Shown here: positions 13,618 through 39,740 of the stretch, piece after piece
How the letters are laid out: each line of letters starts with the position of its first letter
Position numbering within the stretch: the first letter of the stretch is position 1
Assembly: GCA_016838885.1 (NCBI GenBank)
Contig: JAEKNW010000272.1
Coordinates: 1-40,013, forward strand
From: Candidatus Cloacimonadota bacterium
GTDB lineage: Bacteria; Cloacimonadota; Cloacimonadia; Cloacimonadales; JAFGVF01
DNA length: 40,013 nt
Direction of reading: 5' to 3'
Notes under the pieces: model-generated
Database searches by the model: none
What the model was told of the DNA's origin: nothing
Seen by the model: the letters and a program-made list of their open reading frames with translations, nothing else
Program-made: the position numbers and the translations under genes

Positions 13618-13618
13618 A

Positions 13619-18803: not shown

Positions 18804-18805
18804 CT
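18765..18805 (+). repeat. Copy of the dispersed intergenic repeat
   Basis: Reads TTAAACCCAAATAATG through AGAGAATAGCACT and matches the copies at 22415-22503 and the reverse complement of 63-161. Its last two bases overlap the stop codon of the propeller/barrel gene. Confidence 0.8.
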
Positions 18806-21569
18806 AGAATTTAGTAAAGGGGATAAAGAGGTCAAACTGGTGCTTATGGCCTCTATTGAAGGCATGGGTATAGCGAAATCCCAGTTTAAATTCTATGCTA
18901 TCGAGCAGATTGTAGTCGAAGATTAGTTCATTCCCCAGGGTGTTTTGCTCGTGGTAAGTGGTCATATTATCGGAAGAAAGGGCGGACTTGCTATAGCCTG
19001 CCAGTAGGGCGGTATAGATTCTTTTGAGGAAAATGACGTTATCAATCCCTTTTTCAGGATAGAAAAGAGGGAGATAGTATTTAAAGGAAGTCTTATAGAT
19101 TCTATCAGATTGATGCCAATCATCATAGCCATAGAGACTGTTGATCATATTTCCAAATAAATATCTGTTAGTACTATTTTCAGCTAGGAATGAATTTTCT
19201 AAGAGAATAGAATCACTATTACGAAATCCGGGCAGAGAATAATCAGCCATGGCGTAGAATTGCTGAGCATATCTGTTATCAATAGATTTTTTATAACTAA
19301 GCAGATAGTTTTGTCCGAAAGGAGAGTAGAAGTGATTTTTAGCTCTTACTTTGGAATAATTAAAACTTAGGTCTGTTTTAAGATAATTAAGTTTGAGGTC
19401 AGCACCATCAATGAAGTTAAGAATACGTCTAGATTTATAGCGATCGAGGTGGTAGATACCAAGATTGAGATTAACATAACCGGCATACTTTCCTGTAGAG
19501 AAATAATATGGCAATTTAATACTAGATCCATAGGTGATTTCTTCAAATTTATCACTAGAGAAGTTGGAGTTAGCGTGAGATATTTCCGATAAAATGTTAG
19601 GATAGTGTTTAGACATAATATTTGAAATGGTAGTCTTCACACCTTGATTAGTGAAGTTAAACTGAGTTTTAGCATGAATGGTAAAAGTTCTCATGGGATT
19701 CTGAGAAACTGAATAGATGAAGACTTCTTTTTGGTCGTAGCTAAGTCTTAATCTTTTGAAATTTATAAGTTTATAGAAGGGATTAAGTTTATTTGTTGTC
19801 AAGTTATCATTATTTTCTAAACTTAAGATAGCGGAACACTCCTTGGATAAATCATCATAATCATTCCAAAGAATAGGGGTCCAAAATTCTTTTTCCAGAT
19901 CGATTATCCTCAACTGTTTACCCCAATATCTGTTAGAAGTTAAGATCATTCTATTGCCCTTGATAGTAGGTTGACCGGCACTAACTTCAGAGTAGAAAGT
20001 TTGATAAGCTAATGAATCATCGAGGGCGAGAGAGCAGATGTTATAGATATTATTAACAGGATAAGAAAAGTAGATTAATCCATTTTCAACAATTAAATCT
20101 TTTATCGGGTCGATAGAATAGGGGGTGATTCTCTCTTGAAGTTTAGAAGTAAGGTTAAATTTATAGATTGCTGTTTGACCAAGGAAGTTTTCGGCAATAT
20201 AGATTAGGATGTTCTGATCAAGCCAAGTTAGGTCGTGAAAGCTGTAACAATTAGGGTTTGCAAGAGAATAAAGAGGGTTTCCGGTAGGAAAATCTAAGAG
20301 TAAGATCTCTTGTTCAAAATTATCATTATAAGAGACCACACTCAGGATATCTTGTTGAGGAGAAAGAGTTGGTTTAAGATAGAGTTTGTTATTACCAAGA
20401 TAAGAAGTTTTATTATTTTCTAAATTATAAACAGCAATGCGAGAATAGTTAAAATTGTTAAAGTTAGGATAGGCAAAGTTCTGATTCCAGAGAACATAAG
20501 GCTCATTAACATCGACATTCTCAGAGTTAGTAAAACCCATTTTAGTTAATTTCTTAATCTGGTGTAAAGTATCTATTTTTATAATGGTAGGGGATTCTTC
20601 AAAGCTGGAATAGACGGCAATGACTTCATTGTTTGAAAGAAAATGAGGGTGGGAATATGATCTGTTTTTAATGATTATATCTTCAGCGAAAAAGGGCTTG
20701 CTCACATCAGGGGGGAGAGAAGCTACATCATTCTGAAAAATCTCTTGATAATAGGCGTGTGAATCTCGATAGAATTGGCTGAGTGTAAGTCCTGTATGTT
20801 TTTTAAAAGCACTCGAATAAGGGAAAAATATTTTATCAAAATACTCAACATCCTTTACTATTTTTTCCCAATTATCCAAACCGAATTCAATCATAAAGTA
20901 ATCCTGGGCTAAAATCCCAAGATAGATGGGGTCGGGCTGTTTACGGAGATAGGAGCTGTTAAGCAGTTGATTAGTGGTGAAATTTCGATTATTAATAGCA
21001 AAATCGCGATAGTTATCATAGGCATTCAATTCAATTCTTCTCTCAAAAGCGTTAAGGAGATCCAAAGTTTGACCATTTTCGCTAGGATTTTCAAACCAAT
21101 CGGGATAAAGAACTTTCTTGGCACCTTGTAAGGAAGTGCCGCGTGTGAGGTTATAAGTATACTGCAGAAAATCCTTTTTAAAGATATTAAAATCTAGAGA
21201 GAGGGGAATATCTGTTAACTGCTGTAAGTTATTCAAAGTAATAGGGTCGTAGTCCAGTTTGCTATGATTCTCTTTTAGGAAATTATTCTCAACAAAACTA
21301 TAAAAATCAAAATTTAGATTATCAGACATAAAACTAGCATCAATAATAATTCTATCACTCTTAAGAAGATTCTTCATTTCCGGTTCTTCTTTGACAATGA
21401 AAGTAAGAAATGAAGCAACTAATTTAGCTCTTTGTTCATAACTTTTATCGTAAATTATTTGGGTGCCATCAACCTCAATATATTCCCATTTAGGAAGATA
21501 AAATAATTTGGTTTGGCTGGCAAGAAAAGAAGAATAGCAGATCAGGATTACTATTAATAATTTTCTCAT
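18804..21569 (-). CDS. Outer-membrane protein: degenerate peptidase-MA-like domain, PD40 propeller, C-terminal barrel
   Basis: A 921-residue exported protein. After the signal peptide (residues 1-18) comes a region to about 285 that resembles peptidase-MA-like proteins: PDWFENPSENGQT where the family has a WF-x-EG motif, then helical repeats ending KKHTGLTLSQFYRD. No HExxH zinc motif is present, so catalysis is unlikely. Residues about 300-600 form a TolB/PD40-like beta-propeller (strand patterns such as ILSVVSYND and ILTSNRYWG), and about 640-921 look like outer-membrane strands, ending in Phe. Proteins with this layout occur in FCB bacteria with no fixed function. It starts 7 nt after the Wza-like gene and shares its promoter at 22355-22383, suggesting a role in polysaccharide export or surface anchoring. 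Confidence 0.65.
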   Translation of the reverse strand: MRKLLIVILICYSSFLASQTKLFYLPKWEYIEVDGTQIIYDKSYEQRAKLVASFLTFIVKEEPEMKNLLKSDRIIIDASFMSDNLNFDFYSFVENNFLKENHSKLDYDPITLNNLQQLTDIPLSLDFNIFKKDFLQYTYNLTRGTSLQGAKKVLYPDWFENPSENGQTLDLLNAFERRIELNAYDNYRDFAINNRNFTTNQLLNSSYLRKQPDPIYLGILAQDYFMIEFGLDNWEKIVKDVEYFDKIFFPYSSAFKKHTGLTLSQFYRDSHAYYQEIFQNDVASLPPDVSKPFFAEDIIIKNRSYSHPHFLSNNEVIAVYSSFEESPTIIKIDTLHQIKKLTKMGFTNSENVDVNEPYVLWNQNFAYPNFNNFNYSRIAVYNLENNKTSYLGNNKLYLKPTLSPQQDILSVVSYNDNFEQEILLLDFPTGNPLYSLANPNCYSFHDLTWLDQNILIYIAENFLGQTAIYKFNLTSKLQERITPYSIDPIKDLIVENGLIYFSYPVNNIYNICSLALDDSLAYQTFYSEVSAGQPTIKGNRMILTSNRYWGKQLRIIDLEKEFWTPILWNDYDDLSKECSAILSLENNDNLTTNKLNPFYKLINFKRLRLSYDQKEVFIYSVSQNPMRTFTIHAKTQFNFTNQGVKTTISNIMSKHYPNILSEISHANSNFSSDKFEEITYGSSIKLPYYFSTGKYAGYVNLNLGIYHLDRYKSRRILNFIDGADLKLNYLKTDLSFNYSKVRAKNHFYSPFGQNYLLSYKKSIDNRYAQQFYAMADYSLPGFRNSDSILLENSFLAENSTNRYLFGNMINSLYGYDDWHQSDRIYKTSFKYYLPLFYPEKGIDNVIFLKRIYTALLAGYSKSALSSDNMTTYHEQNTLGNELIFDYNLLDSIEFKLGFRYTHAFNRGHKHQFDLFIPFTKF

Positions 21570-21576
21570 TTCAGAC

Positions 21577-22326
21577 TTATTTTGTCATAGAATAAACATT
21601 AATGGCCAAGGAAATAGTAGCCAGTATCGCTGTATAAATATGCCAAGGAAATTCGCGAGGAGGAGGAACAACTAGTGTATCACCCTCAAAAATTAGGAGT
21701 TGGTCTTCAGATGCTTCAACCGTGTTAGAAAACCATAAATCTTTAATCTCTACATCAAAAATCTCTCCATTTTTTCTAATCAAACGTATCTCTTTTACAT
21801 CTCTAATATTTCTAATTCCTCTTGCTAAGGCTAAAGCATCAGTAAGTTTCAAAGGTTCATAGATTTGATATTCACCCGGACTGGTAACATAGCCGATTAT
21901 GTTAACTTTATGTCCATATATTTTTTCCACATAGATGGTTACAACTGGTATCGTAACGTAGGGGAGAAGTCTCTTTTCTATTATCTTTCGTAAGGAGGAT
22001 ACATTCATTCCCTCAGCTCTGATATTTCCCAGCAAAGGATATTCAATCCCGCCATCAGGTAAAACTCGGATAGATTGCTTAGTAAATTCAGGATGCCCCA
22101 TAACCACAATAGAGATAATATCTCCTTTTTTAAGAATATATTGCTCTGTTTCAACAACAGACAGAGAATCCTGTGGCTCCATATCTGAGGCAGTTAAATC
22201 ACGGGCAATATCCTCACGAGTAATCAAAGGAACCCCATCATAATCATCAGTCTGGGCAAAGCCATTAGCTACTAATAGCATTATAACTAGAGAAAGAATT
22301 AGTCTTAGTCTCTTCATATCAGTCAC
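21577..22326 (-). CDS. Wza-like polysaccharide export protein (Poly_export + SLBB)
   Basis: A 249-residue exporter subunit. After a signal peptide without a lipobox Cys, residues about 60-140 form the polysaccharide-export domain (YILKKGDIISIVVMGHPE), then an SLBB domain (GYVTSPGEYQIYEPLKLTDAL) and a hydrophobic C-terminal helix (about 226-246), which in Wza forms the outer-membrane pore. It is shorter than Wza (about 360 residues) and has one SLBB domain. AGGAG lies 4 nt before the GTG at 22326, so that start is preferred; the ATG at 22317 is the alternative. It has its own strong promoter, separate from the upstream motor-Wzc genes. Confidence 0.88.
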   Translation of the reverse strand: MTDMKRLRLILSLVIMLLVANGFAQTDDYDGVPLITREDIARDLTASDMEPQDSLSVVETEQYILKKGDIISIVVMGHPEFTKQSIRVLPDGGIEYPLLGNIRAEGMNVSSLRKIIEKRLLPYVTIPVVTIYVEKIYGHKVNIIGYVTSPGEYQIYEPLKLTDALALARGIRNIRDVKEIRLIRKNGEIFDVEIKDLWFSNTVEASEDQLLIFEGDTLVVPPPREFPWHIYTAILATISLAINVYSMTK

Positions 22327-22354
22327 TTATCTCCTACTATTTATTATAAAATTC

Positions 22355-22383
22355 ATTATATCCTTATTACTAAATTCAGTCAA
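22355..22383 (-). promoter_or_regulatory. Sigma-70-type promoter for the wza-like gene
   Basis: On the minus strand, TTGACT (22383-22378) and a perfect TATAAT (22360-22355) are 17 nt apart, 28 nt before the GTG start. It lies between the dispersed-repeat palindrome and the gene. Confidence 0.8.
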
Positions 22384-22411
22384 TTACTTATTTGGATTTA
22401 CTAGTGCATTT

Positions 22412-22503
22412 CTTTTAACCCGAATGGTGCAGTAGAGCTTTAGAGAAGAGTGCAAAAGAATATAGTGCTATTCTCAAAGATCTACTGCATTATTTGGGTT
22501 TAA
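22412..22503. repeat. Palindromic pair of dispersed repeats overlapping a gene end
   Basis: One repeat copy reads forward at 22415-22454 and another reads in reverse at 22464-22503, so the pair can fold into a hairpin of about 37 bp with several G-U pairs. The right arm covers the last ten codons region of the SLBB-LCP gene; the repeat itself encodes its final residues LNPNNAVDL and stop. Confidence 0.85.
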
Positions 22504-23592
22504 TTCTAATACTTTCTGTTGATACTCTTGAAGCTTAGTTTCCCAATAGACTTTGCCATTTATGGTTTTATGAATTCCCGGGAAAGTAAAATATTCAATT
22601 TTCCTATTCTTCATTCCCTTGACCTTAATAGCAATAGGGACAGCATTTTGGACTGTGAAGTTAGTCTCTGCTTCATCTAGAATTTGCTTACCCATGTTGG
22701 TTGAAACAAAGAAATCATGATTAATAAATTTCTTATATAGCTCTAGCATGAAGGCTTTTTGACGGCTCATTCTATTTAGTGAACCTGTCTGGAAATCTAT
22801 TTTTCTCATATCTTTAGAAATATAAGTTATGTAAAGCCAGGAAGTGTAACCATCTATTACATGAGGACCTGAATTAACCCGATATTGCTTAGCGAAACTA
22901 TCAGGAATATCAACTTTAACCCCACCTAAATAATCTATAAACTTAATCCAGGAAGGCCTATCTTGACAGAAATAATAATCAATTTTTTTATTAGTAATCA
23001 TTTGGACACCACTTACTAAATCACTAGTTCCTCCATAGAGATAGGTTTCATAAAGGGTTTTAGTTCCGTTAATGGCGTCTGGAATAGCTGTAAACCAAGG
23101 GAGATGACTGGCAAATAAAAGCTCCTGTTTAGGATATATTGTGATTAGAATGAAAGTTCGTGGAAGCCCTGCATAAATGATGTTGATTTCCTCCAGTTTA
23201 TCAAGTTTAGGCATTTCAGGAATATCTACTTGGATCTCTGGGGCTTGAACCGGAATATCAAGTTCTACAGGTTGCTTGCAGGGAATACAATAGACTTCCC
23301 AAGCTTGAACTTCACTATCAAGGTCTAATTTAGAAAAATCTGCATTTTGCTTAGCTCCCTTAGCACTCATAACTAAATCAAAGAGAGAGGCTCGCGATGT
23401 GATAGGATAAACGCCCGGATCCTGAACACAGCCTCCTATCCCGGCATATATTAAATCTTTCTTAGGTGAACAAGTTCGCAAAGATAATAGAATCAATACT
23501 ATTATCACAATCAACATAATGAATGATATTAAGTAGGAAACTAATTTGCCAGGTGATATAGGTTCTCTTTGAATACTTCTATGATTCTTCAT
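22474..23592 (-). CDS. Membrane protein fusing an SLBB domain to an LCP (LytR-CpsA-Psr) domain
   Basis: A 372-residue inner-membrane protein. One transmembrane helix (about 22-41) precedes an extracytoplasmic SLBB domain (GGCVQDPGVYPITSRASLFDL) and an LCP-type domain (about 130-330) recognisable by KKIDYYFCQDRPSWIKFIDYLGGVKV and RMSRQKAFMLELYKKF. LCP enzymes transfer polymers from lipid carriers to acceptors and are rare in diderms. Several active-site residues look changed: the usual PRD after the first strands is PWF here, and the paired Arg before the final RQ are missing. It may bind rather than transfer. It overlaps the Wzc-like gene by 14 nt. The ATG at 23592 was chosen; upstream starts (23604, 23601) are possible. 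Confidence 0.7.
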   Translation of the reverse strand: MKNHRSIQREPISPGKLVSYLISFIMLIVIIVLILLSLRTCSPKKDLIYAGIGGCVQDPGVYPITSRASLFDLVMSAKGAKQNADFSKLDLDSEVQAWEVYCIPCKQPVELDIPVQAPEIQVDIPEMPKLDKLEEINIIYAGLPRTFILITIYPKQELLFASHLPWFTAIPDAINGTKTLYETYLYGGTSDLVSGVQMITNKKIDYYFCQDRPSWIKFIDYLGGVKVDIPDSFAKQYRVNSGPHVIDGYTSWLYITYISKDMRKIDFQTGSLNRMSRQKAFMLELYKKFINHDFFVSTNMGKQILDEAETNFTVQNAVPIAIKVKGMKNRKIEYFTFPGIHKTINGKVYWETKLQEYQQKVLELNPNNAVDL

Positions 23593-26293
23593 AATCATCA
23601 TCTTCAATGTCAATATAATCAGACAGACCTAAAAATTCTTTAAAAGCATCCTTTGTTTTAGTAAATACACCCTTTTTCTTAACATTCTTATAAGTTTTTT
23701 TAGTGGGAAGTCCCTTTATGTTTGGTGAATCTAAAGAATTTTCTTCATTATAATCATCAGGTTTTGTCTTAACTCTTTTCTTCTTCTTCTTTGATCCATC
23801 TTCTAAAGTATAGTAATAGTATTCATAACCATAGGAATAATAATCATAGTAAGCTGTATCAAAGATGTCATTCAAAACCCCATTTGCTATGAAACCGGAG
23901 CAATTTGAATTAATCATATTCAATTTTTTGAATACTCTGTTAATACTTTTAAGAGTGGTAATATTGATCTTTGCAGTTAATAAATTGTAATCAAGATGAC
24001 TTATGAGCACTAAAGTCTCAGGGAAATACATATAAGCAGGAGTATCGATAATAACAATATCTGCACAAGCTTTAATTGATTTAATATAATCTCCGAATTT
24101 ATCACTGTGATAAAGCTTATTCACACTTGGAGGAAGCTTTCCTGAAGGCAATATAGAGAGATTTTCGAAGCGGGTCTGGATAATTGCATCTTCTAGGTCG
24201 ATTTGTTCGGTTACTACTTCAGAAAACCCGGGCACTCGATTATAATCATAATAGCGAGATACACGAGGATTATAGGAATCAGCATCCACAAGTAGGACCT
24301 TCGTGTTATTTCTAGCTAAAGCTACTGCTAAATAATTAGAAATAGTAGACTTTCCTTCCCCTTTAACTGAGCTAATAATGCCGACTAAGTTATGCTCTTT
24401 ATTCATTATTAAATACTTGAAATTTAGGGCAATTTCATTGAAGATAGCTAGAATACTATCCTTTAAGAGATTATTATCTTTAGTGTCTTTTTGAGTTAGA
24501 ACATCCAACTCCATAGGACTGAAATCAAGCCTTGGAACAGTTCCAACGATGGGAATATTAGGATAGTTATTAACTAAAGTCTTGACATTTCGAATTTTAT
24601 TATCGAACATGTTGAGAAGCATTGCCAAACCAAAGCCTAAACCTAATCCAAGTATAACACCGATTAGAAGATTCAACTTCATCTTGTTATTTGAAGGTTT
24701 AGAAGGAACAACTGCTTGCTCTAACTGGACTATCCTATGAGAATCTACACTAGAACTTAAGCGCATCTCACTAAGCTGTGATTGAAGGTTAATAATAATA
24801 GCATTCATGGCATTTTTTCGTCTATGGAAATCATTTAAAATTGAAGTAACTTCAGGATTTAATTCCATAGCATCAATTACCCTGGCTAGAGCTATCTTTC
24901 TCTGATTTAAAGAGATAACCTTTGTTTCAGATTTGATTAAATCTGATAAAATTTGTTGTTTAAGTGGATTATTCCCCACACTTTTTAGCTGAATATTTTG
25001 TTCTGCCCCTTCTTCAATGAGCTTGGTGATGTTGGTTATGTTCTGCTTGATACCAATGACCTTAGGATGATTATCTCCATAAGAAGTCAGGGCTCTAGCT
25101 AAATCAACTTCCAGATTAAGAAGCTTCATTTTCAAGGGCTCACTATAGGTTGTTTCTGTAGTATATTCAGAATCCTCTTCTTTAAGTCTGCTCTTTAAAG
25201 CTCTAATATTGGCATTCTCAGACTCTAATTCTACTTCTGTGTTTGATAAAATATCTTTGAAACTGCTTAATCTCTTAAAATTATCTTCCAGATCACCTGA
25301 GTAGCCTTTATAGTTATGTTGGGCATAAACCTTCTCAATTTCAGCATTCAATGAATCAAGATTATTGTTGTTCTTTGCTAATTGTTCTTCTAAATATCTG
25401 ATTGTTTTAGCATAATTATCATTCCGCAATGACATATCATGATCATTAACAGCCAGATAATAAGTATTGGCTATTTCAGCTGCGATGTTGGGGTTAGGAT
25501 GAGATGAAGTTAGAGTAAGAATACGTTCTGAATCCCTTTGTGAGGTGCATTCAATTGAACCCCTAATTGCTCCGGGAGATACCTTGCCTTCCATGAGTTT
25601 AGAAACAATCTGAGCTACATCTGTTGATTCAATTATTTGAATCCATTCGTTCAGTTTCATCTGCTCTTTAAAAACAGGCTTCTGATTTATAATCTTAAGT
25701 TCGATTAAATCATTGTTAATAAGTAACTTTGTTGATGATTTATAAATTGGAGTTTGATTTATAGAATAGACATAAGCCGCCAGAATCAAGGCAATTGTTA
25801 TCAACAAAATCATGAACTTATAACGATAGGCTATCTCTAAATAATCCATTATATTGATTTCATCTTCGAAGATATTCTTTTTAGGAGAAGCTTGAGAATA
25901 TTTATCATAGCCATAAGCGGACTCTGCTTGATAATTTTCATTATTTTGATGAATATGATGAGGTACTTGTGCTTGTTTCTCAACCCCATAATTATATGAG
26001 GATTCTCTTGGATTATCATTTATTTGAACACTATTTTTTTGTTGAGGTTCTTTTTCACTTTCAATCTTAGATGCAGTTTCATGATTATTAATTTTATCAC
26101 TAACTACTTGTGAGTTATTATTTGCATGCTGTTTGGCTAACTCTGCCTTTTGTGCTTCGCTACGGTTAACAAATACAGATTTCTTGTCAGAAGTCGTTAC
26201 AGACTTATCCTCACTTTGTGGACTTGAGTCTGTACCATTTGAAGCAGCTCTCATCTTTCTTAATTCAGCAATAGAAATCTTTTTATCTGTCAT
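23579..26293 (-). CDS. Wzc-like polysaccharide co-polymerase with BY-kinase domain
   Basis: A 904-residue inner-membrane protein. Residues 1-150 are a polar, Asn/Gln/Ser-rich cytoplasmic extension not usual in Wzc. A Wzz domain follows (first helix about 159-176; second near 535-560, LLIGVILGLGLGFGLAMLL), with coiled coil between. The C-terminal kinase has Walker A (GEGKST, near 647), A' (VLLVDAD) and B (IVIIDTP), and a Tyr cluster at about 810-830 (YYDYYSYGYEYYYY), the usual autophosphorylation tail. A further tail of about 70 residues, rich in Lys then Asp/Glu, follows the cluster. Such proteins set polysaccharide chain length and gate export. The gene starts 4 nt after the ATPase gene and overlaps the SLBB-LCP gene. 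Confidence 0.92.
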   Translation of the reverse strand: MTDKKISIAELRKMRAASNGTDSSPQSEDKSVTTSDKKSVFVNRSEAQKAELAKQHANNNSQVVSDKINNHETASKIESEKEPQQKNSVQINDNPRESSYNYGVEKQAQVPHHIHQNNENYQAESAYGYDKYSQASPKKNIFEDEINIMDYLEIAYRYKFMILLITIALILAAYVYSINQTPIYKSSTKLLINNDLIELKIINQKPVFKEQMKLNEWIQIIESTDVAQIVSKLMEGKVSPGAIRGSIECTSQRDSERILTLTSSHPNPNIAAEIANTYYLAVNDHDMSLRNDNYAKTIRYLEEQLAKNNNNLDSLNAEIEKVYAQHNYKGYSGDLEDNFKRLSSFKDILSNTEVELESENANIRALKSRLKEEDSEYTTETTYSEPLKMKLLNLEVDLARALTSYGDNHPKVIGIKQNITNITKLIEEGAEQNIQLKSVGNNPLKQQILSDLIKSETKVISLNQRKIALARVIDAMELNPEVTSILNDFHRRKNAMNAIIINLQSQLSEMRLSSSVDSHRIVQLEQAVVPSKPSNNKMKLNLLIGVILGLGLGFGLAMLLNMFDNKIRNVKTLVNNYPNIPIVGTVPRLDFSPMELDVLTQKDTKDNNLLKDSILAIFNEIALNFKYLIMNKEHNLVGIISSVKGEGKSTISNYLAVALARNNTKVLLVDADSYNPRVSRYYDYNRVPGFSEVVTEQIDLEDAIIQTRFENLSILPSGKLPPSVNKLYHSDKFGDYIKSIKACADIVIIDTPAYMYFPETLVLISHLDYNLLTAKINITTLKSINRVFKKLNMINSNCSGFIANGVLNDIFDTAYYDYYSYGYEYYYYTLEDGSKKKKKRVKTKPDDYNEENSLDSPNIKGLPTKKTYKNVKKKGVFTKTKDAFKEFLGLSDYIDIEDDDYEES

Positions 26294-26297
26294 GTAA

Positions 26298-27131
26298 TTA
26301 TTGTCCGTTGTTTTCTAAATCTTGGAAAACAATAGTAACTAAATCTTGATCAATTAACTTTATTCTTTCCATGGAAGCAATATCCATAGAAATCTTACAA
26401 ACTCGATTTATTTCTCGTGGAATTCCATTAGTTTTGGAGTGTATTAACTCGCAAGCTTCTTGAGAAAATACTTCTTGAGATGCTCCGGCAATCATTAATC
26501 TATGTTTAATATATTTGACAGTTTCTTCCTGTGATAGATGGGTTAGATGATATCTCATACCAATTCTTTGATTTACTTGAGGCAACTTCTCTACATTCTT
26601 GATTAAGCTAGGCTGGCCAATCAGAATTATTATTATGGGGCTGTCATATCCAAAAGTAATATTAGTTAAATCTTTGAGATAATCTAAATCACGTGATGCT
26701 ATCTTCTGAGCTTCATCAAATAATAAAAAGAGACGATTATTTGATTTATCAATTTTATTTTCTAAAAACTTTCTTAGTTTTATCTCTAAGGAGTAGCGTC
26801 TTGAAGGAAGATTATCCGGCTCTATACCTGTTAACTGATACAAAACCTCCTTCATTATCTCAGCATAACTATATGAAGTTGAATTAATATTGACTATCAT
26901 GTTTCTAGCGTTTGCTTTTAATAGAGATTCCATCAATACAAGCTTGGTTATGGTTTTACCAGTTCCTACTTCTCCACTTAACATCCCCATATTCATGGAT
27001 CCAGACTCAGTTACATAGTGAAGACGCTCTAAAGCTTCTAAATGATCACTGCTCTTATAGTAAAAGACTGGATCATTATTGTCTTGAAAAGGGGCACGAT
27101 TCAAATCCCAAAATGAATAATAATCTATCAT
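26298..27131 (-). CDS. AAA ATPase of the GspA/ExeA and XrtA-associated type
   Basis: A 277-residue ATPase. It begins SFWDLNRAPFQDNNDPVFYY, the characteristic opening of ExeA/GspA-like and exopolysaccharide-locus (XrtA-associated) ATPases, and has Walker A GEVGTGKT and Walker B FLLFDEAQ. No transmembrane helix or peptidoglycan-binding domain is present, unlike ExeA. Its start overlaps the MotB-like stop (TGATG) with GGAG 7 nt upstream, so translation is coupled. Homologues sit in polysaccharide clusters with Wzc and Wza, as here; the mechanism is not known. Its place between the stator and Wzc genes suggests it links the two modules. Confidence 0.85.
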   Translation of the reverse strand: MIDYYSFWDLNRAPFQDNNDPVFYYKSSDHLEALERLHYVTESGSMNMGMLSGEVGTGKTITKLVLMESLLKANARNMIVNINSTSYSYAEIMKEVLYQLTGIEPDNLPSRRYSLEIKLRKFLENKIDKSNNRLFLLFDEAQKIASRDLDYLKDLTNITFGYDSPIIIILIGQPSLIKNVEKLPQVNQRIGMRYHLTHLSQEETVKYIKHRLMIAGASQEVFSQEACELIHSKTNGIPREINRVCKISMDIASMERIKLIDQDLVTIVFQDLENNGQ

Positions 27132-27826
27132 CAGATCTCCTCTTTTCTCTGTTTACTTAGTTTGATTTCAACTCTTCTATTTCTTTCTCTATTCTCTTTT
27201 GTATCATTTGGTGATATCGGCTTAAATTCACCATATCCCATAATCTGAAGCTGGTCAGGACTAAAATAATTATTGCGTAAAAAGAACTTAACAATACTCA
27301 AAGCTCTGGCCGTGGATAACTCCCAGTTTGATGAATAACGAGAGGTAGAAATCGGAACATTATCTGTATGTCCCTCAATCCTAATACTCCAATTATCACC
27401 ATCACTGATTATCTTCTCAATATCTTCGGCTATTTCAAGTAAAGTGGCTTGAGAACTCCATTTTAAGTCAGCATCACCACTCTCAAACAAAATCTCACCA
27501 GGTATAGATATTACTTTCTCATTCAAATCGGCTACTTGCTCATATAGAGTAGAATCAACAGCTACTTCATTCTCCGAAAGCATCTTCTTTGATTGCTCCT
27601 CAGAAACATTCTGCCAGCCTAATTCTGTATCCTTAATAAGATAGAAAAAAACAAAGAATATCAAAAGTAGGGTCATCATATCAGAATAGGGAACTAAACT
27701 GACATAGAAGCCTGAAAAATCACTTTCAGGACTATCAAATTCACGACCTTGCTGACTTTGATTTTCCTCAGCAATATCATATTTGCTTACTTTGCTCTTT
27801 CTTCTGTTTTGGAAAGAATTAAACAT
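27131..27826 (-). CDS. MotB-like stator protein with OmpA domain
   Basis: A 231-residue protein. A polar N-terminus of about 40 residues leads to the single transmembrane helix SDMMTLLLIFFVFFYLI with an Asp at position 49, equivalent to the ion-binding Asp32 of E. coli MotB. The periplasmic part ends in an OmpA/MotB peptidoglycan-binding domain (IEGHTDNVPI, NWELSTARA, GYGEFKP, NRRVEIKL). The start ATG at 27826 overlaps the motA-like end (stop at 27821-27819); a TTG at 27838 is less likely. MotB anchors the stator to the cell wall and, with MotA, converts ion flow to torque. There is no flagellar gene nearby other than the FliF-FliG fusion. Confidence 0.9.
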   Translation of the reverse strand: MFNSFQNRRKSKVSKYDIAEENQSQQGREFDSPESDFSGFYVSLVPYSDMMTLLLIFFVFFYLIKDTELGWQNVSEEQSKKMLSENEVAVDSTLYEQVADLNEKVISIPGEILFESGDADLKWSSQATLLEIAEDIEKIISDGDNWSIRIEGHTDNVPISTSRYSSNWELSTARALSIVKFFLRNNYFSPDQLQIMGYGEFKPISPNDTKENRERNRRVEIKLSKQRKEEI

Positions 27827-28556
27827 AAATCTTTTCAAGACCTGCTTTTATTAATTCAGAATTCTTTTTATTCATAATGCCTACTACACCTTCAATGATA
27901 ATCTTTCTGCTCATAAAAGTGTATTCTGCTTTGGTGGCTAATTTACCGGCCATGGGTCTAAAAATAACCACTGAAGTAATTAATCCATAGAGTGTTGTAA
28001 CTAGAGCAAGACTCATAGCTTTAGGAATAACTTCAGGATTAGCCATATTCCCTAACATGGCGATTAAACCTATCACGGTACCTATCATTCCAAAAAGAGG
28101 GGCAATATTACTGGCTACAGAAAATATCTTTGCTGAATTCTTATGTTTATTCAATATTGAATAACTCTCTTTTTCTAATAACACCGGTATCTCTTCAGCA
28201 GGTAAATTATCTGTAATTAATTTTAAAGCATTTTTAAAGAAGGGAAATTTCTGAACTTCATCATAATCCATAATCTCTTTCACTGTTACAGAACGGGAGT
28301 CTTTGCTAATTGTAACAATAGTATCAACTAAATCAGCATGACTATACCTATCCTCAGGAGAATTATAAAAGAAGTCCTTCATTGCTTTGATCAGAGACGT
28401 GGCAGAATAGGTACTTATTAAAGACGTAATAGTTCCTCCCAATGTTACTAACAAGGCAATAGGGTCTAAATAAGAACTTAAATCTCCTTTGTTATTAATA
28501 GCTATAAATAGAATTAAAATACAAAGAAATCCACCGACAATTGTCGAAATTTTCAT
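27819..28556 (-). CDS. MotA-like stator protein
   Basis: A 245-residue inner-membrane protein with four helices (about 4-20, 31-49, 146-169, 182-200). It has the MotA signature PLFGMIGTVIGLIAML with Pro153 and a second Pro201, positions matching the functional prolines of E. coli MotA. The cytoplasmic loop has Arg88 in KDSRS, aligning with Arg90 that contacts FliG; the partner acidic residue is not at the same spacing, but Glu94 is close. It is not a ZorA, because it lacks the long C-terminal tail. AAGGAT lies 7 nt before the ATG, and the gene follows the FliF-FliG gene by 9 nt. Confidence 0.9.
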   Translation of the reverse strand: MKISTIVGGFLCILILFIAINNKGDLSSYLDPIALLVTLGGTITSLISTYSATSLIKAMKDFFYNSPEDRYSHADLVDTIVTISKDSRSVTVKEIMDYDEVQKFPFFKNALKLITDNLPAEEIPVLLEKESYSILNKHKNSAKIFSVASNIAPLFGMIGTVIGLIAMLGNMANPEVIPKAMSLALVTTLYGLITSVVIFRPMAGKLATKAEYTFMSRKIIIEGVVGIMNKKNSELIKAGLEKIYV

Positions 28557-28565
28557 AAAATATCC

Positions 28566-29948
28566 TTAATAATTTAGTAGATAACGTATTTTTTGTAATG
28601 AGTGATTAATAATTTTCTCTGCTTCTTCGTCTGGTATCTCTCCAATAATTTCCATATCTTCTTTTAAGATAATAACGGCTCTTTCAGATAGCTGAGAGAA
28701 GAACTTCTGTCGAATTTCATCAGGGACACACTTCAGGAATTGAACCATCTCACGATGAGTGAATTCACTGTTGATTTGTTCAATTTGAACATTCTTAAGC
28801 TTTAAAATATCCTCTATGAGGAATATCTTTTTCTGGACCTCTTGAGCTAATTCAGGATTAAGTTCTTTTAGTCTGTCAAACAATTTCTGAGCAACAGATA
28901 GTGAAGAATTATTTATGAAGTTAATCATTATTTTAACATTATTAATCTTGAGGGGATTCTTATCCAAAGCTTCTAAATACTTCTGATACATGCCAACAAC
29001 CATAATCTTCATATCTAACTGCAGGATGTTTTCCATATTTAGGAGGTGCTGAATTACTTCATCAATTGAGCCATCATAGAATTTAAAGAAGTAATCTACT
29101 TTTTCTGCTTCGACTTGAGTTAGAATCAAGGCAATCTCTTTAGGATTTTCTGATTTAATTATTGATAAGAAGTTACTATTTGATAGCTCATTTAAGAAGT
29201 CTAAGTTATTATCACTTTTAGCTTCATCGTCTTTCAGGATTTTCACTTGAAGAGGCTTGCCTGAATTTGATATAAAAGAATGGTTCTCCCCTGAGTTAGG
29301 GTTAGAATACATTTTGAAATCTCTACTTTCAGTCCCTTTCAATTGGTCTAGATTAGATATCTTGATTCTTCTTAATGATTTGGCGATGATTTTAGTACTA
29401 TTTCTGATATTATTTATAATTATCATAATCACAAAAAGGGTTAGGAGAATCAGAAAATTACGGAAATTAAAGATAGAGTTACTACTATCTTTAACAACTG
29501 GTAAATCGGGAGTAATCAAGAGTTCATCGCCTCTTAATAAGTCAATAGAAATGGTATTAGAGACTACTTCTTCGAGCTCTTTCAATAAATCTTCACCAAC
29601 ATTTTCAGGGACTCGTACCCTTATTCTCATCTTAGTAATCTCTGTTGGGGCATAGTCTGTCAAATCAATATTTGGTACAGAACTATCAGTTTTACCAACT
29701 GGTAATCCGGGTAAGCTAAGCTTTTGGTCGATTTTTAAATCTCCAGATGACGGATTAAACAGATTATACTTAAGATCTAAATCAACAAAGACTATTGATT
29801 TTTCGACAAAGTTACTCAGGTTATTCTCAATTCTTTGTGCCAGTTCATTTTCTGCTTTAATCTCACCTAGTGAGTTTCTTATAGGATAAGCAAGCATTGT
29901 GTTCGTGAAAAGGAACAGAGCCCATAATAAAACTAAATAAGATTTCAT
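28566..29948 (-). CDS. FliF-FliG fusion: MS-ring C-terminal domain + membrane helix + C-ring torque domain
   Basis: A 460-residue protein. After a signal peptide (1-20), residues about 30-150 match the C-terminal ring-building domain of FliF (ENELAQRIENNLSNFVEK and VFVDLDLKYN, then RIRVRVPENVGEDL and LLRGDELLITP). One transmembrane helix (about 164-179) follows, then a basic linker and FliG middle and C-terminal domains (about 250-460): SENPKEIALIL in place of the EHPQ motif, KKIFLIEDIL in place of MFVFEDI. Lys406, Arg423, Glu430 and Asp431 align without gaps with E. coli FliG Lys264, Arg281, Asp288 and Asp289; Arg297 is replaced by Pro439. The FliG N-terminal domain, which binds FliF, is absent, as expected for a fusion. 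GAGGT 6 nt upstream supports the start. It is first in the motor operon. Confidence 0.85.
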   Translation of the reverse strand: MKSYLVLLWALFLFTNTMLAYPIRNSLGEIKAENELAQRIENNLSNFVEKSIVFVDLDLKYNLFNPSSGDLKIDQKLSLPGLPVGKTDSSVPNIDLTDYAPTEITKMRIRVRVPENVGEDLLKELEEVVSNTISIDLLRGDELLITPDLPVVKDSSNSIFNFRNFLILLTLFVIMIIINNIRNSTKIIAKSLRRIKISNLDQLKGTESRDFKMYSNPNSGENHSFISNSGKPLQVKILKDDEAKSDNNLDFLNELSNSNFLSIIKSENPKEIALILTQVEAEKVDYFFKFYDGSIDEVIQHLLNMENILQLDMKIMVVGMYQKYLEALDKNPLKINNVKIMINFINNSSLSVAQKLFDRLKELNPELAQEVQKKIFLIEDILKLKNVQIEQINSEFTHREMVQFLKCVPDEIRQKFFSQLSERAVIILKEDMEIIGEIPDEEAEKIINHSLQKIRYLLNY

Positions 29949-30077: not shown

Positions 30078-33000
30078 ATGAGACTTTTATTTAAGAGAAA
30101 TCACACTTTTTTTATGGTATTATTTTGGATATTATTCGTTAATATCCTTAATGGAGAGAAGCAATTTGACTTGAATAAATGGCAAGGAAACTATTCTATC
30201 AAGGGTAAGAATGCTTTTGACCAGTTTGGTTATCAAATCGCTTCGGGAGATATTAATGGAGATGGTATAAGTGATATTATTATTTCAAGTCCTTCTGCTG
30301 ATCCTTTAGGAAGAAATTCTGCCGGAGAAGTGTATATTTTCTGGGGAGAAGAAGAAGCTGAGCAAAGTATAGATTTAGATTTAAACATGGATGCAGCTGA
30401 TGTAACAATCTATGGGGCCCAAAGTGGAGATAAGTTGGGTTATAGTTTAGTTGTGGGTTCATTCAATGGAGACAACTATGCTGATTTCGCTATATCTGCT
30501 CCTTATAGCAATAATGGTAATACATTACAAGCCGGTAGAGTTTATCTTTTTTATGGAGCTCCCAATTTACCAGCACTTATAGACTTAAATAGTGATTCAG
30601 CTAATCATCAATTTATTGGAGAGATGACAAATGATGTTTTAGGTCAATCTCTTTTGTTTACTGATTTAAATAATGATAGCATGGATGAATTAGTAATTGG
30701 AGCTCCGGAAGCAGATAAGTCTGAACTCAGCAATTGCGGTAAAGTCTATCTTATCTGGTCGCATGAGACTTATTCGTCGAGTGTTTATTTATCAGAGGCT
30801 GGTAATGTTACTTATTTTGCAGGTAGTGCTATCAACGACAACTTTGGTAAGTCTTTTGCTTCAGCAAATATCAATAATGACACATTTGATGATTTAATAG
30901 TTGGAAGCCCTGGTTTTGATGAAGGGGCTTTGATAAACAATGGCGCTGTATACATCATCAGGGGGAGAACATTTTATCCTTATGGAGAGATAAGTCTAAC
31001 TAATTCAACATATATTAATAATCAAATAAAGGGAGCATATCACTCTTCTCGTTTGGGTAGAGCTATTGCCGGGGGAGATGTGAATGGAGATGGTTTTGGT
31101 GATTTGCTGATTACAGATTTTTCTAATCAAAGCTCATCAAACATAGTTTTTCTTCTTTTGGGAAGTAATAGTTTAGCTGAAGAGATTAGTTTAAATAGTG
31201 AGAATTCTAATTCTAGGATAATTAATCAAACCATAACAGATAACGAATTTGGTAAGACACTTCTAATAGGAAATTTGAAATCTGATACTCCGGCAGATAT
31301 CATTATTGCTTCTCCAATGGCTTATTCAAGTAATGGAAGTCAAAGTGGATTAGTTCATGTTTTGTATGGTAGGACTCAATTCCAGGCTAACTATGATTTT
31401 GGCTTAATTGAATTTGATGAAGTTTATCATGGAGAATCTGTAAATGCAAAGTTAGGTAATTCAATAAATATTGCAGATTTCAATAATGATAATAAGCAAG
31501 ATATTTGGTTAGGTTCAATTGAAGCCGGTAATAATAAGGGGAAGGTGTATTCAATCTATGGAGGTATTCCATGGGTCTGGAATCTCTTGCCTACTGATGG
31601 GGCAACTAATGTTGACATTGACCAAGCTATTGCTTTTTCTTTATCTGATGACCAACTGATTGACTTGAGTTCTTTGAGTGTCAATATAGCCGGGACAAGT
31701 TATGATATGGACAGTAATAATCTTTCTTATAGTGGAAGCGGTAATTTTTATAGAGTTACCATAGCTCCGGAAAGTTATTTTGGATATAACCAAATTATTA
31801 ATATAGCCATTGAGGCAACAGATGATGATGGTTGGCAGATACCAACTACAAATTATAGATTCTTTACTCGAGAAGATACTGATCCTCCTTTTACCAATCA
31901 ATGGGAACCTGCTCCAAATGAACAGGGAGTACCTGTTGATACCAATATTGAATTTAATGTTTATGATTTAGGAGAAGGGGTAAATATCTCTTCTGTAGTT
32001 GTTAATGTAAATGGAACAAACTACTATTCAGGAAGTCCTTATTTTTCGTATCTAGGACAAGCCAACAATTATCCCATAATTATTAATCCCCCAGACAACT
32101 TCTCTTTTAATGAAGAGGTTTTTGTTTCGATAGATTGTGAAGATTTAGCACCGAATCCCAATGTTATGGCTACCTTCAATTACTCTTTTATCTGTGGTCA
32201 GGACACATCTTCACCTAGTATAATAATCATAGAACCTGCTTATGGGGAAGAGGTTGCCAGAACGAATCCTGTCTTTGTAGAAGTCGTTGACAGTGAATCT
32301 GCACTTAATCAAAATTCCTTAGTATTTACTTTGGATGGTGTTAATTTACTTCCTCAATCGGAGATTACTCAGCTTCCAAATGGCAGACTTAGGGTCTATT
32401 ATAATCCATTAGAACACAATCTTTTAAGTTATGGTGAAAGGGAGCTTTATTTTTATATTGAAGATGCTTCGAGTAATAGTAACAGCATTGATACTACTTC
32501 TGTATTCACTGTAATCCCGGATAATCAAGCACCATATACAGCTAATCATTTTCCTGCCAAGTTTAGTATAGATAATGCTACAAACACGCAGTTCAAAGTC
32601 GATGTTTTTGATTTACTGAGTGGTGTTGATGGTTCCACTCTTTCCATATTAATTAATGGGAATGAGATTGTGGGAAGTGAATCTATATCTATCAGCAGTT
32701 TGAATAATGGTTACCGGGTGATCTATAATCCTCCTGATAGGTTGGTGGGAGAAGTTTCAGTGGAAATAGTAGTTAGTGATTTAGAAGTACCGGCAAATAC
32801 CATGCCCATTGAGAGTTACACCTTTACTACTTCATTAGATACAGAAGCGCCTTATATAGCAGATTTATATCCTGCTGAAGGGGCTATCAATATCCCTGTT
32901 GATGCTAATCTTAGTTTTAAGATATTTGATACAAAAACAGGTGTTGATCGAAACTCCTTGCAAGTAACTATTGATGATATTGATGTTTCTGAGGCACTAA

Positions 33001-34742
33001 ATATAGCCCCTATTACCCAGGGTTTTGATGTTCTTTATCTGTTAGAGTATCCTTATGAATTTGATCAGCTGGTGAATGTTTATATAATCTGTTCTGATTT
33101 GGAAGAACCTGCAAACATGTATGAGAATAACTATTATTTTAGAATTACTCCTGATTTAGAAGCACCTTATCTTGTTAATTTTAATCCTGAACCCAATTCT
33201 CAAGCAGTTCCGGTGAATAGTGGTATTTACTTTGAGATTTATGATAATGGGATTGGTGTTGATATTGAGAGTTTGGAGATGAAGGTGAATAATCAAATAG
33301 TTGAACCGGAAACAAGTCTTATTCCCGAGACTCTTTTTTATGAAGTCAGTTATTCAGGTCTTGATTTTGCCTATGGAGAACAAGTAAATGTTGTGGTGAG
33401 TGTTAGTGATTTAGCGTCTTCACCGAATACCCTAACTAACTATAACTACTCTTTTACGGTAGTTGATGATGATCAAGAGCCTCCATTTTTTACAGGATTA
33501 CAGCCTTCAGAGGATAGTACAGATATTCCAATAAATACAGGGATTTCGCTAATGATATTGGACAGAGAATCAGGGGTTGATGCAAATTCTATTATTTTCA
33601 AGGTAAATAATATTACCATATCCGACTATGAATTGCAGGAGATTGGCAATGAAGAAGGAAGTGGTTTCAGATTGAGCTATGAACCTCAAGAAAGCTTTGG
33701 TTTTGGAGAGATAGTGAGGATTCAGATTTATGCTATGGACACTTCAAGCAACAATAATACAGCTAATAAATCTTATTCTTTTACTACAGAAAATGATACT
33801 GAACCACCATATTTAGAGCTTGCATCTCCCGGAGATGGTGGTTCAGGCTATGCCAATTCCCATCTTTATATATCACTAAAAGATGATCTTTCCGGTATTG
33901 ATAAAGCTAGTTTTTCTTTGAAAATTAATGGAAATTATGTTACAACTTATCAGGATTCATTAAGGGATAAGAGATTGGAGGTCTGGTATAGCACAGCCGG
34001 ATTTTATGAAAGTGAGAGTGTAAATGTGGAGTTAAGTGTCTCTGATATGGTGGGTAATATTTACCAAGACTCTTATAGTTTCAGTATTATACCTGATGAG
34101 TTTCCACCTTATTTTGTCTGGCTTAATCCTGCCTTAAGTAATGAAATTGACTTAGGTGATTATCTGAAAGTTGCTATTTTAGATAAGGGGGTAGGGATTG
34201 AGGAAGAGACAATCAGCTTCATTTTAAATGGACGTCAGATTGAGAATTATAATTTAGATAGAACAAGCTATAACAGTAATCCTGATTCCTTGGGAGTAAT
34301 ACTTCAGTATCAACTTGATGAGACTTATTATCCGGGAGAGTCTTTAGTGATAACCTTATCAGCTAAGGATAAGAATCAGCCTCTTCCTCTTGAGAGAAGC
34401 CAGCAGTATAATTTCTTCATTAAGAGAGCTTTAGAGAAGAACAAGGTGGAAGTTATCCCCAACATAATTTCTCTTAATTTTGATGGAATAAATGATCATA
34501 GTAGAATAATCATCCCGACTATAGATAGGGTTAAGTGCCAGATTTTTAGTCGGTCAGGAAAGGAGATTGTTGATCTTTCTTCTACCTTAATCGCTCAAGA
34601 GGATGAGTTAGGAGTAAAGTATCAAGTAGCAATATGGGATGGTTTTAATAGCGATAAGAAACCAGTGAATGCCGGGATATATATATGTCAGGTAACCTAC
34701 GGTGATAATGTTCATCGTAACACTATTACAGTAGCTAAGTAG
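30078..34742 (+). CDS. Giant secreted protein: seven FG-GAP blades, nine Ig-like repeats, type IX/gliding-like C-terminus
   Basis: A 1554-residue exported protein. The signal peptide (about 1-27) precedes seven FG-GAP repeats to about residue 490, forming one integrin-like beta-propeller; most have the calcium loop DxNxDxxxD (SGDINGDGISDIIISSP, TDLNNDSMDELVIGAP). Nine Ig-like units of about 100 residues follow, each opening with a hinge like DTEPPY or DLEAPY and containing a GVD or GVN turn. The last 100 residues resemble the gliding-associated/type IX B sorting domain: NFDGINDHSRI, IFSRSGKE, WDG, then PVNAGIYICQV. This points to a surface adhesin exported by a type IX-like route. AGGAG 6 nt before the ATG supports the start. 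It is divergent from the motor operon, and the PorV-like gene follows by 10 nt. Confidence 0.85.
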   Translation: MRLLFKRNHTFFMVLFWILFVNILNGEKQFDLNKWQGNYSIKGKNAFDQFGYQIASGDINGDGISDIIISSPSADPLGRNSAGEVYIFWGEEEAEQSIDLDLNMDAADVTIYGAQSGDKLGYSLVVGSFNGDNYADFAISAPYSNNGNTLQAGRVYLFYGAPNLPALIDLNSDSANHQFIGEMTNDVLGQSLLFTDLNNDSMDELVIGAPEADKSELSNCGKVYLIWSHETYSSSVYLSEAGNVTYFAGSAINDNFGKSFASANINNDTFDDLIVGSPGFDEGALINNGAVYIIRGRTFYPYGEISLTNSTYINNQIKGAYHSSRLGRAIAGGDVNGDGFGDLLITDFSNQSSSNIVFLLLGSNSLAEEISLNSENSNSRIINQTITDNEFGKTLLIGNLKSDTPADIIIASPMAYSSNGSQSGLVHVLYGRTQFQANYDFGLIEFDEVYHGESVNAKLGNSINIADFNNDNKQDIWLGSIEAGNNKGKVYSIYGGIPWVWNLLPTDGATNVDIDQAIAFSLSDDQLIDLSSLSVNIAGTSYDMDSNNLSYSGSGNFYRVTIAPESYFGYNQIINIAIEATDDDGWQIPTTNYRFFTREDTDPPFTNQWEPAPNEQGVPVDTNIEFNVYDLGEGVNISSVVVNVNGTNYYSGSPYFSYLGQANNYPIIINPPDNFSFNEEVFVSIDCEDLAPNPNVMATFNYSFICGQDTSSPSIIIIEPAYGEEVARTNPVFVEVVDSESALNQNSLVFTLDGVNLLPQSEITQLPNGRLRVYYNPLEHNLLSYGERELYFYIEDASSNSNSIDTTSVFTVIPDNQAPYTANHFPAKFSIDNATNTQFKVDVFDLLSGVDGSTLSILINGNEIVGSESISISSLNNGYRVIYNPPDRLVGEVSVEIVVSDLEVPANTMPIESYTFTTSLDTEAPYIADLYPAEGAINIPVDANLSFKIFDTKTGVDRNSLQVTIDDIDVSEALNIAPITQGFDVLYLLEYPYEFDQLVNVYIICSDLEEPANMYENNYYFRITPDLEAPYLVNFNPEPNSQAVPVNSGIYFEIYDNGIGVDIESLEMKVNNQIVEPETSLIPETLFYEVSYSGLDFAYGEQVNVVVSVSDLASSPNTLTNYNYSFTVVDDDQEPPFFTGLQPSEDSTDIPINTGISLMILDRESGVDANSIIFKVNNITISDYELQEIGNEEGSGFRLSYEPQESFGFGEIVRIQIYAMDTSSNNNTANKSYSFTTENDTEPPYLELASPGDGGSGYANSHLYISLKDDLSGIDKASFSLKINGNYVTTYQDSLRDKRLEVWYSTAGFYESESVNVELSVSDMVGNIYQDSYSFSIIPDEFPPYFVWLNPALSNEIDLGDYLKVAILDKGVGIEEETISFILNGRQIENYNLDRTSYNSNPDSLGVILQYQLDETYYPGESLVITLSAKDKNQPLPLERSQQYNFFIKRALEKNKVEVIPNIISLNFDGINDHSRIIIPTIDRVKCQIFSRSGKEIVDLSSTLIAQEDELGVKYQVAIWDGFNSDKKPVNAGIYICQVTYGDNVHRNTITVAK

Positions 34743-39300: not shown

Positions 39301-39740
39301 ACTCAACTTCTTCTAAAATAAATCAATTTAATCTTATAGCTAACCTTGCTCATAAGGGAACTCAAAAAATTCTTATTGCAGAAGATGTCGAAATAAACCT
39401 AGTCTTGATCAAAACCATTATTAAGAAAATTATCCCTAATGCACTTGTTTCTTCTGTGGCTAATGGACAAGAAGCTGTCGCTCTTTGCCATCAAGAAAAC
39501 TTCAATCTTATCCTCATGGATGTCCAAATGCCTGTTATGGACGGCTTGGAAGCTACTCGTATAATCCGACGTCACGAAGAAAGTAGCGATCATTATACTC
39601 CTATCATCGCCCTCACCGCTGGTGCTACTAAAGAGGAAACACAAAAATGTATTGATGCCGGGATTAATGATTTTATAACTAAACCTATCGATCAAGAAAG
39701 ACTATTTTCTCTCCTTGATTTCTATCTGGAAAAAGAATAA
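36351..39740 (+). CDS. Hybrid histidine kinase with periplasmic solute-binding sensor
   Basis: A 1129-residue membrane kinase. After a signal peptide, a family-3 solute-binding domain (about 30-255; GVDPDWYPLEYVD) senses a periplasmic ligand, as in BvgS. One helix (about 263-283) leads to two PAS domains with PAC motifs (about 300-420, 430-545), a GAF domain (about 560-735), HisKA with His760 in SHEIRTPLNG, an ATPase domain (LLNNAIKF, DTGIGIP, GTGLGL) and a receiver with Asp1057 in LMDVQMPVMDG and the Lys in ITKPID. There is no HPt or output domain, and no separate regulator gene in the window, so the partner lies elsewhere. It follows the PorV-like gene by 119 nt; whether it controls these genes is unknown. 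Confidence 0.92.
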   Translation: MKYLIITLLLVMSLSTFAFNNGVEIELSVAEQEYLKQLGSIKMGVDPDWYPLEYVDQKGNYNGIIPEILKLLEERLGITFELVKTQDWTETLARSRQGDFPLIPALNKTEYRDEWLYFTDPIMIEPNVAVTKNNFPPISDITKLKDKTLVTIPNTMVDEWARRDFHNLKIIYRDTELECLQAVDSGQADLTIRSQLMTAYLIRKEGFANLKINNQVPGYSNHIRMGVLKSEPILVDILNKGIRTITFHEKEAIINKFVSLNMETPLNYPLIITISSLVLLITLALYFWNRKLRKLNAVIKAGEEKQRAIIQAIPDGLSISDLNGMITYVSKESIQMWGYSSKNEIIGKNILNFVHPSHHEKAMNNIKLMMEGTLTGFAEYKMVRRSGRSFYSESNAEIIKDNEGNPYAILYVNRDISDKKRTELQLKKAIGRYEAIMNQSRTINWEIDADGLYTYISPNVKKILGYDKEEIAGKKHFYDLFPEEKREKLTEEVFSIIREQKTLSNYENLILHKDGQAIWFLTSGLPKVNEDGQVIGFQGSGTDITLRKNAELRVHYQNQFQQAIAHISANLIDVNLTNYQAKFQMMLEKLGEQLSADHTFILEFSENKDYLSYSYEWCASGIISSKDVLNQVNIKEFPFATQIIANREKFHVKDVENLEPGSPERKFFDNLNLKSGLYMPIIRNNNLFGYFGFDSTKWTLHLPDEDIELLQIVANIIGDIYIRNEIEAEKNRVQDSLREATIQAKQASQAKSEFLANMSHEIRTPLNGVIGFTDLLLSSNLNSEQQQYAHNTNVSGKALLAIINDILDFSKIEAGKLELDILFTDIHTIIQETTDILKYQAQKKNIKFTLDIDSQLPNAIKTDPTRLKQVLINLLNNAIKFTEKGHVKLKVDFTSIDENSGKINFSVIDTGIGIPLNHQEKLFSAFSQADSSITRKYGGTGLGLTISNLLLHKMGSKIDIESTPGQGSAFSFTITTEYQNYKVDSTSSKINQFNLIANLAHKGTQKILIAEDVEINLVLIKTIIKKIIPNALVSSVANGQEAVALCHQENFNLILMDVQMPVMDGLEATRIIRRHEESSDHYTPIIALTAGATKEETQKCIDAGINDFITKPIDQERLFSLLDFYLEKE

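Follow-up and report, generated by a model that had tools for sequence, protein, structure and literature searches.

No FliG-type rotor outside the flagellar motor is known to us or was found in the open literature searched, and the Agl machinery of Myxococcus is not known to have one. In Flavobacterium the type B adhesin SprB remains attached to a carrier of its own, SprF; through its periplasmic C-terminal tail, SprF is connected to a track that the GldLM motor drives (PMC12635249). The Agl-Nfs machinery moves spore-coat polymer in Myxococcus (PMC3858216), and MotAB-like stators of the GIT class occur outside flagella (PMC12505986). The window examined here is a stretch of 40,013 nucleotides (nt; JAEKNW010000272.1 in assembly GCA_016838885.1). 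It belongs, as a single contig, to a 3.3 Mb genome that is 99.3% complete and whose relatives are Candidatus Cloacimonadota. It carries a FliF-FliG fusion gene followed by MotA and MotB. The product of this locus is probably an ion-driven rotary machine, not part of a flagellum, whose load is an adhesin on the cell surface; in some lineages an exopolysaccharide would be added as an accessory.

The minus strand, from 29948 to 21577, contains genes for the FliF-FliG fusion, MotA, MotB, a GspA/ExeA-like ATPase, Wzc, an SLBB-LCP protein and a Wza-like protein, in that order, with intergenic gaps of 9, -20, -1, 4, -35 and 147 nt. An earlier note, made from the letters of the window, had described the first six as a one-strand run and had placed the Wza-like gene after them; all seven were confirmed where it put them. 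For the open reading frame at 18804-21569, labelled propeller/barrel in that note, neither Pfam nor NCBIfam gave a match to back the label. Divergent plus-strand adhesin and carrier genes (30078-36231) begin 129 nt from this run. The features of the motor and of its adhesin and carrier are:

28566..29948, minus strand: FliF-FliG rotor fusion, 460 amino acids (aa); FliG_C 5e-18, phmmer to solved FliG 9e-19, full-length homologues in ~25 genomes
29499..29870, minus strand: FliF RBM3-like periplasmic ring-building domain, aa 27-150; AlphaFold secondary structure, Foldseek and split homologue
29364..29462, minus strand: transmembrane helix linking the FliF and FliG parts, aa 163-195; model helix, hydrophobic sequence
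28575..29201, minus strand: FliG middle and C-terminal (torque) domains, aa 250-458; FliG_C, Foldseek and alignment
27819..28556, minus strand: MotA stator subunit; MotA_ExbB 1e-23, weak MotA_N
27131..27838, minus strand: MotB stator subunit with ion-binding Asp53 and a peptidoglycan-binding OmpA domain; OmpA 5e-20, MotB_plug 3e-7
30078..34742, plus strand: giant surface adhesin, 1554 aa; FG-GAP 5e-43, Big_5 (Ig domain) 7e-8, CHU_C 4e-6
~34455-34706, plus strand: CHU_C type IX (type B) signal at the adhesin C-terminus; CHU_C 4e-6
34753..36231, plus strand: PorV/PorP-SprF-like outer membrane (OM) carrier barrel, 492 aa; PorV_fam 3e-11, Foldseek, adjoins FliF-FliG in relatives
~35926-36225, plus strand: C-terminal TPR of the carrier, putatively periplasmic; TPR match

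The AlphaFold model of the fusion (mean predicted local distance difference test score, pLDDT, 70.5) consists of a signal peptide, an alpha-beta-(insert)-beta-alpha-beta domain, a transmembrane helix and the middle (M) and C-terminal (C) domains of FliG. The insert lies between the first two strands of the RBM3-like domain, as in the FliF collar. Using Foldseek, the N-terminal half matched FliF RBM3/S-ring structures (6scn, 7cg7 and 8zdt, E 2e-4 to 1e-3) and the C-terminal half matched FliG (best E 8e-9). Pfam matched only the FliG part of the window protein and no FliF domain. A split homologue in another phylum matches YscJ_FliF_C directly (1.1e-3), and the FliF identity of the window protein was therefore assigned from the model, the fold search and this match. 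FliF RBM1, FliF RBM2 and the FliG N-terminal domain are not evident in the fusion; the usual contact between FliF and the FliG N-terminal domain would be unnecessary, since the two proteins are fused. As modelled, the FliF-FliG fusion is real. It is not a product of chance, because the same fusion recurs with MotA and MotB in ~25 other genomes. Chance adjacency of the genes was rejected as well, as the neighbourhood recurs across genomes. The earlier note had held that its proposal would fall if the neighbourhood were unique to one genome or if the motor genes stood mostly beside flagellar genes, and neither was found.

The residues that generate torque in the flagellar motor were examined by alignment, with the roles of the MotA and FliG residues taken as cited in PMC12505986. 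R423 of the window fusion corresponds to E. coli FliG R281 and is followed by an acidic E-D pair corresponding to D288/D289. The R281 position is arginine in 25/25 fusions, and positions 288/289 are acidic in 25/25. All 15 MotAs that were aligned have a basic residue at the position of R90. The ion-binding aspartate of MotB is kept in nearly all motors (one Asn, L031; handles in L and G denote loci and genomes), and the OmpA domain is present in all. Rotor (RBM3, FliG M and C) and stator are homologous to those of the flagellum, with the torque residues retained except for MotA E98. A third FliF-FliG form of 509-533 aa (L094-L097), followed by two TPR/PorV-like proteins and with no MotAB beside it, has lost the torque residues and serves as an internal control for their conservation; it is perhaps a static scaffold.

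The genome of the window contains this one FliG, with no second FliG, no FlhA and no FliM/FliN. FlhA was absent in 17/19 fusion genomes tested and FliM/FliN likewise in 17/19, the window's genome included in the FliM/FliN count. Flagellar markers and the fusion motor occur in one genome in G013 and G060. The lack of flagellar genes, previously proposed from the window, holds genome-wide for the markers tested, and the proposal of a non-flagellar rotor-stator machine is supported.

To identify the partners of the motor, 125 Cloacimonadota genomes were searched. The fusion is carried by ~24 of them, and one Fidelibacterota genome (L056) and one 'Gemmatimonadetes' metagenome-assembled genome (MAG; G060) bring the number to 26. 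Partners were counted by hand from neighbourhood tables over 24 genomes; G342 and G341, where only a second-copy-like or cut-off locus was seen, were set aside, and G060 was read from two contigs (L141, L142) that meet at the motor. Next to the motor stands an adhesin gene in 23/24 genomes and the carrier gene in 22/24, the exceptions for the carrier being G334, whose contig is cut short, and G354. The usual order, found in ~18 genomes, is adhesin-carrier-FliFG-MotA-MotB with gaps of mostly -11 to 27 nt. The system is rearranged yet complete in L151, L056 and G060, with adhesin and carrier 3' of MotB. The adhesin and carrier genes at 30078-36231 are the most conserved partners of the motor. 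This near-universal pair was missed by the earlier note, which had joined the motor to the polysaccharide export genes.

Second-copy fusion loci with neither adhesin nor carrier were also seen, L042 and L146 (FliFG-MotA-MotB) and L043, where the contig end cuts the locus. A 376-aa gene follows MotB in L042 and L146 and is TPR/YfiO-like in L042.

Adhesin repeats vary among genomes (FG-GAP, cadherin, PKD and Big), and CHU_C ends most of the adhesins. In the carrier model, a linker joins a β-barrel to a C-terminal TPR that is predicted well. Foldseek matched the barrel with FadL and with PorV of the type IX secretion system (T9SS; 8gl6_F, 6h3i_F), and the G060 carrier matches PorP_SprF above the family cut-off. 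The TPR is the best conserved region of the carrier, even between fused and split systems. A CHU_C-ended adhesin beside a PorP/SprF- or PorV-like barrel is the arrangement of a type B adhesin and its carrier. The SprA translocon (PF14349) is present in the window's genome as a 2127-aa frame (G000:C119). SprA family members were found in 28/30 genomes tested and in 13/14 of those with the fusion, the window's genome included. GldM (0/29 genomes) and GldN (0/30) gave no match, in searches that included no T9SS positive-control genome, and this is a lead only.

A type B adhesin, a dedicated carrier, a putatively periplasmic TPR, an RBM3 ring, FliG and MotAB follow the same logic as SprB and SprF. 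MotA5-MotB2 stators, anchored to peptidoglycan via MotB, would turn the FliF-FliG ring by acting on the torque helix of FliG. FliF, reduced to the RBM3 ring-building domain, would sit in the periplasm. In the OM, the FadL/PorV/SprF-like barrel would carry the giant adhesin, exported via the SprA (type IX) translocon, and would offer its C-terminal TPR to the periplasm, where it may couple to the turning ring. Turning of the ring would then drag or rotate carrier and adhesin, with gliding or active surface attachment as the predicted outcome. In the lineage of the window, an added Wzc/Wza/LCP exopolysaccharide module probably supplies slime or a track. Sequence establishes the parts and how they are linked, the kept torque and ion residues, the type IX signal, the layout of barrel and TPR and the lack of flagellar markers among those tested; rotation, contact of carrier and ring, movement and the part played by the polysaccharide are inferred.

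The gliding apparatus of Bacteroidota (SprB, SprF, GldJ/GldK track, GldLM and SprA T9SS) shares with this system a type B type IX adhesin, SprA, a dedicated FadL/PorV-like carrier with a periplasmic tail and an ion-driven motor of the 5:2 family. It differs in its motor, as MotAB and a FliF-FliG rotor are found here and GldM/GldN went undetected in the uncontrolled search described above. The carrier ends here in a TPR and in SprF in Cys-X-Cys, and motor and adhesin share one operon here. The earlier note's analogy with AglRQS and GldLM was apt; its reading as slime secretion or export gating fared less well, since carrier and adhesin put the SprB-SprF system of Bacteroidota much closer.

Several points weigh against an adhesin-moving motor. 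We know of no rod or bushing that carries rotation across the periplasm. The models of carrier and rotor are of modest confidence (mean pLDDT 69-71). The SprF-type Cys-X-Cys tail occurs in none of 22 carriers, which have the TPR instead. MotA E98, the partner of FliG R281, is not kept and is hydrophobic in most of these MotAs, and the contact between stator and rotor therefore differs from that of E. coli. The paralogous fusion-MotAB loci without adhesin or carrier (L042, L146) imply that the motor can have other loads. Finally, no isolate or cultured strain was found.

Compared with the flagellar motor, no FliM/N, FlhA or other flagellar gene is nearby, FliF is cut to RBM3 and fused to FliG, the FliG N-terminal domain is lost, and the partner is an adhesin carrier. 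Myxococcus Agl-Glt and Agl-Nfs likewise couple a stator of the proton-motor family to OM adhesin or polymer machinery and have a polysaccharide association (PMC3858216); a ring-building rotor is present here, and the OM partners are unrelated in name. The GIT class differs in that a FliG rotor stands in the operon here; in the paper on that class FliG comes up a single time, with reference to the flagellar motor, and Cloacimonadota do not appear (PMC12505986). The open literature on FliG with gliding, polysaccharide, Cloacimonadota or Marinimicrobia was searched, with subscription papers and preprints outside the scope, and no such system is described there. The parts are known, the machine as a whole has no description that we know of, and its function is predicted from sequence. 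If the prediction is true, the core of the flagellar motor is a separable module that works with an adhesin and an OM carrier, and a third engine for surface motility stands beside GldLM and Agl. It would also hint at how type IX surface adhesins are powered in phyla where GldM/GldN go undetected, and would bear directly on the role of the flagellar motor before, or apart from, the rotation of a filament. Surface motility is predicted in uncultured flagellum-less lineages (Cloacimonadota, Fidelibacterota).

The motor might power secretion rather than movement, replacing GldLM for the SprA-type IX translocon, with the carrier as a PorV-like shuttle. The presence of SprA in 28/30 genomes without detected GldM or GldN and the type IX-like adhesin and carrier are in its favor. 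However, SprA is found without any FliF-FliG in the Cloacimonadota genomes G006, G009 and G011, and these relatives indicate that SprA does not in general depend on the motor. The GldM/GldN negatives lack a positive control, and each operon has its own adhesin, as expected of a dedicated load. We regard a secretion drive as unlikely, though worth keeping in mind.

The polysaccharide genes bear on a second alternative. The window contains Wza (Poly_export/SLBB) together with Wzc (Wzz and BY-kinase-like ATPase), a module from which polysaccharide export is predicted. This module and the other features near the motor are:

26298..27131, minus strand: GspA/ExeA-like ATPase, accessory, polysaccharide module; AAA_22 7e-15, TIGR03015 3.5e-44
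23579..26293, minus strand: Wzc-type chain-length protein with BY-kinase-like ATPase, accessory; Wzz 4e-8, AAA_31 3e-12, eps_fam 1e-31
22474..23613, minus strand: SLBB-LCP protein, accessory; LCP 2e-11, SLBB weak at 0.005
21577..22326, minus strand: Wza-like OM polysaccharide exporter, accessory; Poly_export 3e-19, SLBB_2 1e-7
18804..21569, minus strand: 921-aa protein with signal peptide, possible member of the system; no match in Pfam or NCBIfam
36351..39740, plus strand: hybrid sensor kinase (SBP-PAS-GAF-HisKA-REC), possible regulator weakly tied to the system; domain matches

Wzc/LCP/Wza homologues adjoin the motor in 4/26 genomes: the window, G354 (L144), L056 and G060 (L142 plus L141). 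These represent two Cloacimonadota families, Fidelibacterota and the 'Gemmatimonadetes' MAG. On a single strand, L056 has the order ATPase-Wzc-LCP-Wza-receiver genes-FliFG-MotA-MotB-adhesin-carrier, with the homologue of the GspA/ExeA-like ATPase upstream of Wzc. G060 has Wza-Wzc-FliFG, then MotA-MotB-adhesin-carrier-LCP. Among 24 other genomes the window SLBB-LCP protein has strong matches only in G059 and G060 and one weak match besides; a homologue is also found in G354/L144, and none of 11 Cloacimonadota with a motor of the adhesin-only type gave a strong match. L056 motor genes resemble those of Cloacimonadota G334 (38-68% identity), and transfer or misbinning may be the source of the polysaccharide link on this contig. 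The link is supported independently of L056 by G354, from the same class as the window, and by G060. Two extreme views were rejected: that the motor is always polysaccharide-linked, given 4/26 motor genomes, and that the link is a one-off, given four genomes in three phyla. The polysaccharide-motor link is recurrent and specific but optional. Of the tie proposed earlier, the recurrent link stood and the expectation that the fusion is always next to Wzc/Wza did not, as ~22/26 genomes are without it.

The motor could accordingly be imagined to rotate or gate the Wzc-Wza exporter, extruding slime or winding polymer around the cell as in Myxococcus Agl-Nfs, for which there is the precedent cited above. 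The linkage in three phyla and the co-occurrence of SLBB-LCP with the linked form are consistent with this. The link is lacking in most motor genomes, however, where the SLBB-LCP gene itself is absent when tested, adhesin and carrier are retained where the exporter is lost, and no glycosyltransferase, Wzx or Wzy stands beside the module in the window. We consider exporter drive improbable.

Regulatory genes stand near some motors. A CheY-like single receiver gene lies directly upstream of FliF-FliG in two loci (L056:9519-9890 and L145:8666-9034). Together with the hybrid kinase adjoining the carrier in the window, these receivers suggest possible direction control without FliM. In one subgroup (L032, L033, L034, L036 and L045) a ~300-aa gene follows MotB, and in L032 it is an MscS-like mechanosensitive channel. 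Such genes would fit a mechanosensor or attachment device in which adhesin load is felt by stator and rotor and signalled via receivers, kinase or channel. Not every motor has such regulators, and a direction switch would explain them just as well, which leaves this idea with a slim chance, somewhat below that of exporter drive. Least credible of all is the idea that the locus is the remnant, now in decay, of a flagellum that was lost: flagella occur among relatives of the same order, but the reading frames are intact in a tight operon of their own, fusion and FlhA co-exist in G013 and G060, and the idea was rejected on residue conservation (torque and ion residues) and on the FliG tree, in which the fusions stand separate from the flagellar FliGs found in their own phylum.

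This maximum-likelihood tree of FliG M-C domains separates fusions, split form, third form and flagellar FliGs. One group (100/99) holds 24/25 fusion rows, and L062, the 25th, is likewise outside the flagellar group. The tree is unrooted with long branches and does not give the direction of descent. The split form is found in the Fidelibacterota phylum as an operon, carrier-MotA-MotB-FliF-FliG (310 aa), often after a TPR gene, and was complete in all seven inspected loci with a long enough contig (L098-L102, L104, L106). FlhA was above cut-off in only 3/35 genomes tested from the phylum of L056. The split operon is apparently a second, widespread non-flagellar FliG system. One might speculate that the machines seen in Cloacimonadota, Fidelibacterota and relatives, whether fused, split or MotAB-less, represent several ancient non-flagellar lines of the rotor-stator family, at least one of them older than the flagellum. 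The flagellar motor would then have started as an adhesin mover, with type III export and a filament acquired afterwards; at present we find this doubtful.

Elsewhere in the window, positions 4646-9429 hold three large consecutive open reading frames (659, 425 and 507 aa), none of which has a convincing Pfam match; they adjoin ispG (GcpE) and an Omp85 protein. Both the window (10420-16678) and G060, which belongs to another phylum (L142:4279-8530), have a fab-rnc cluster close to the motor locus.

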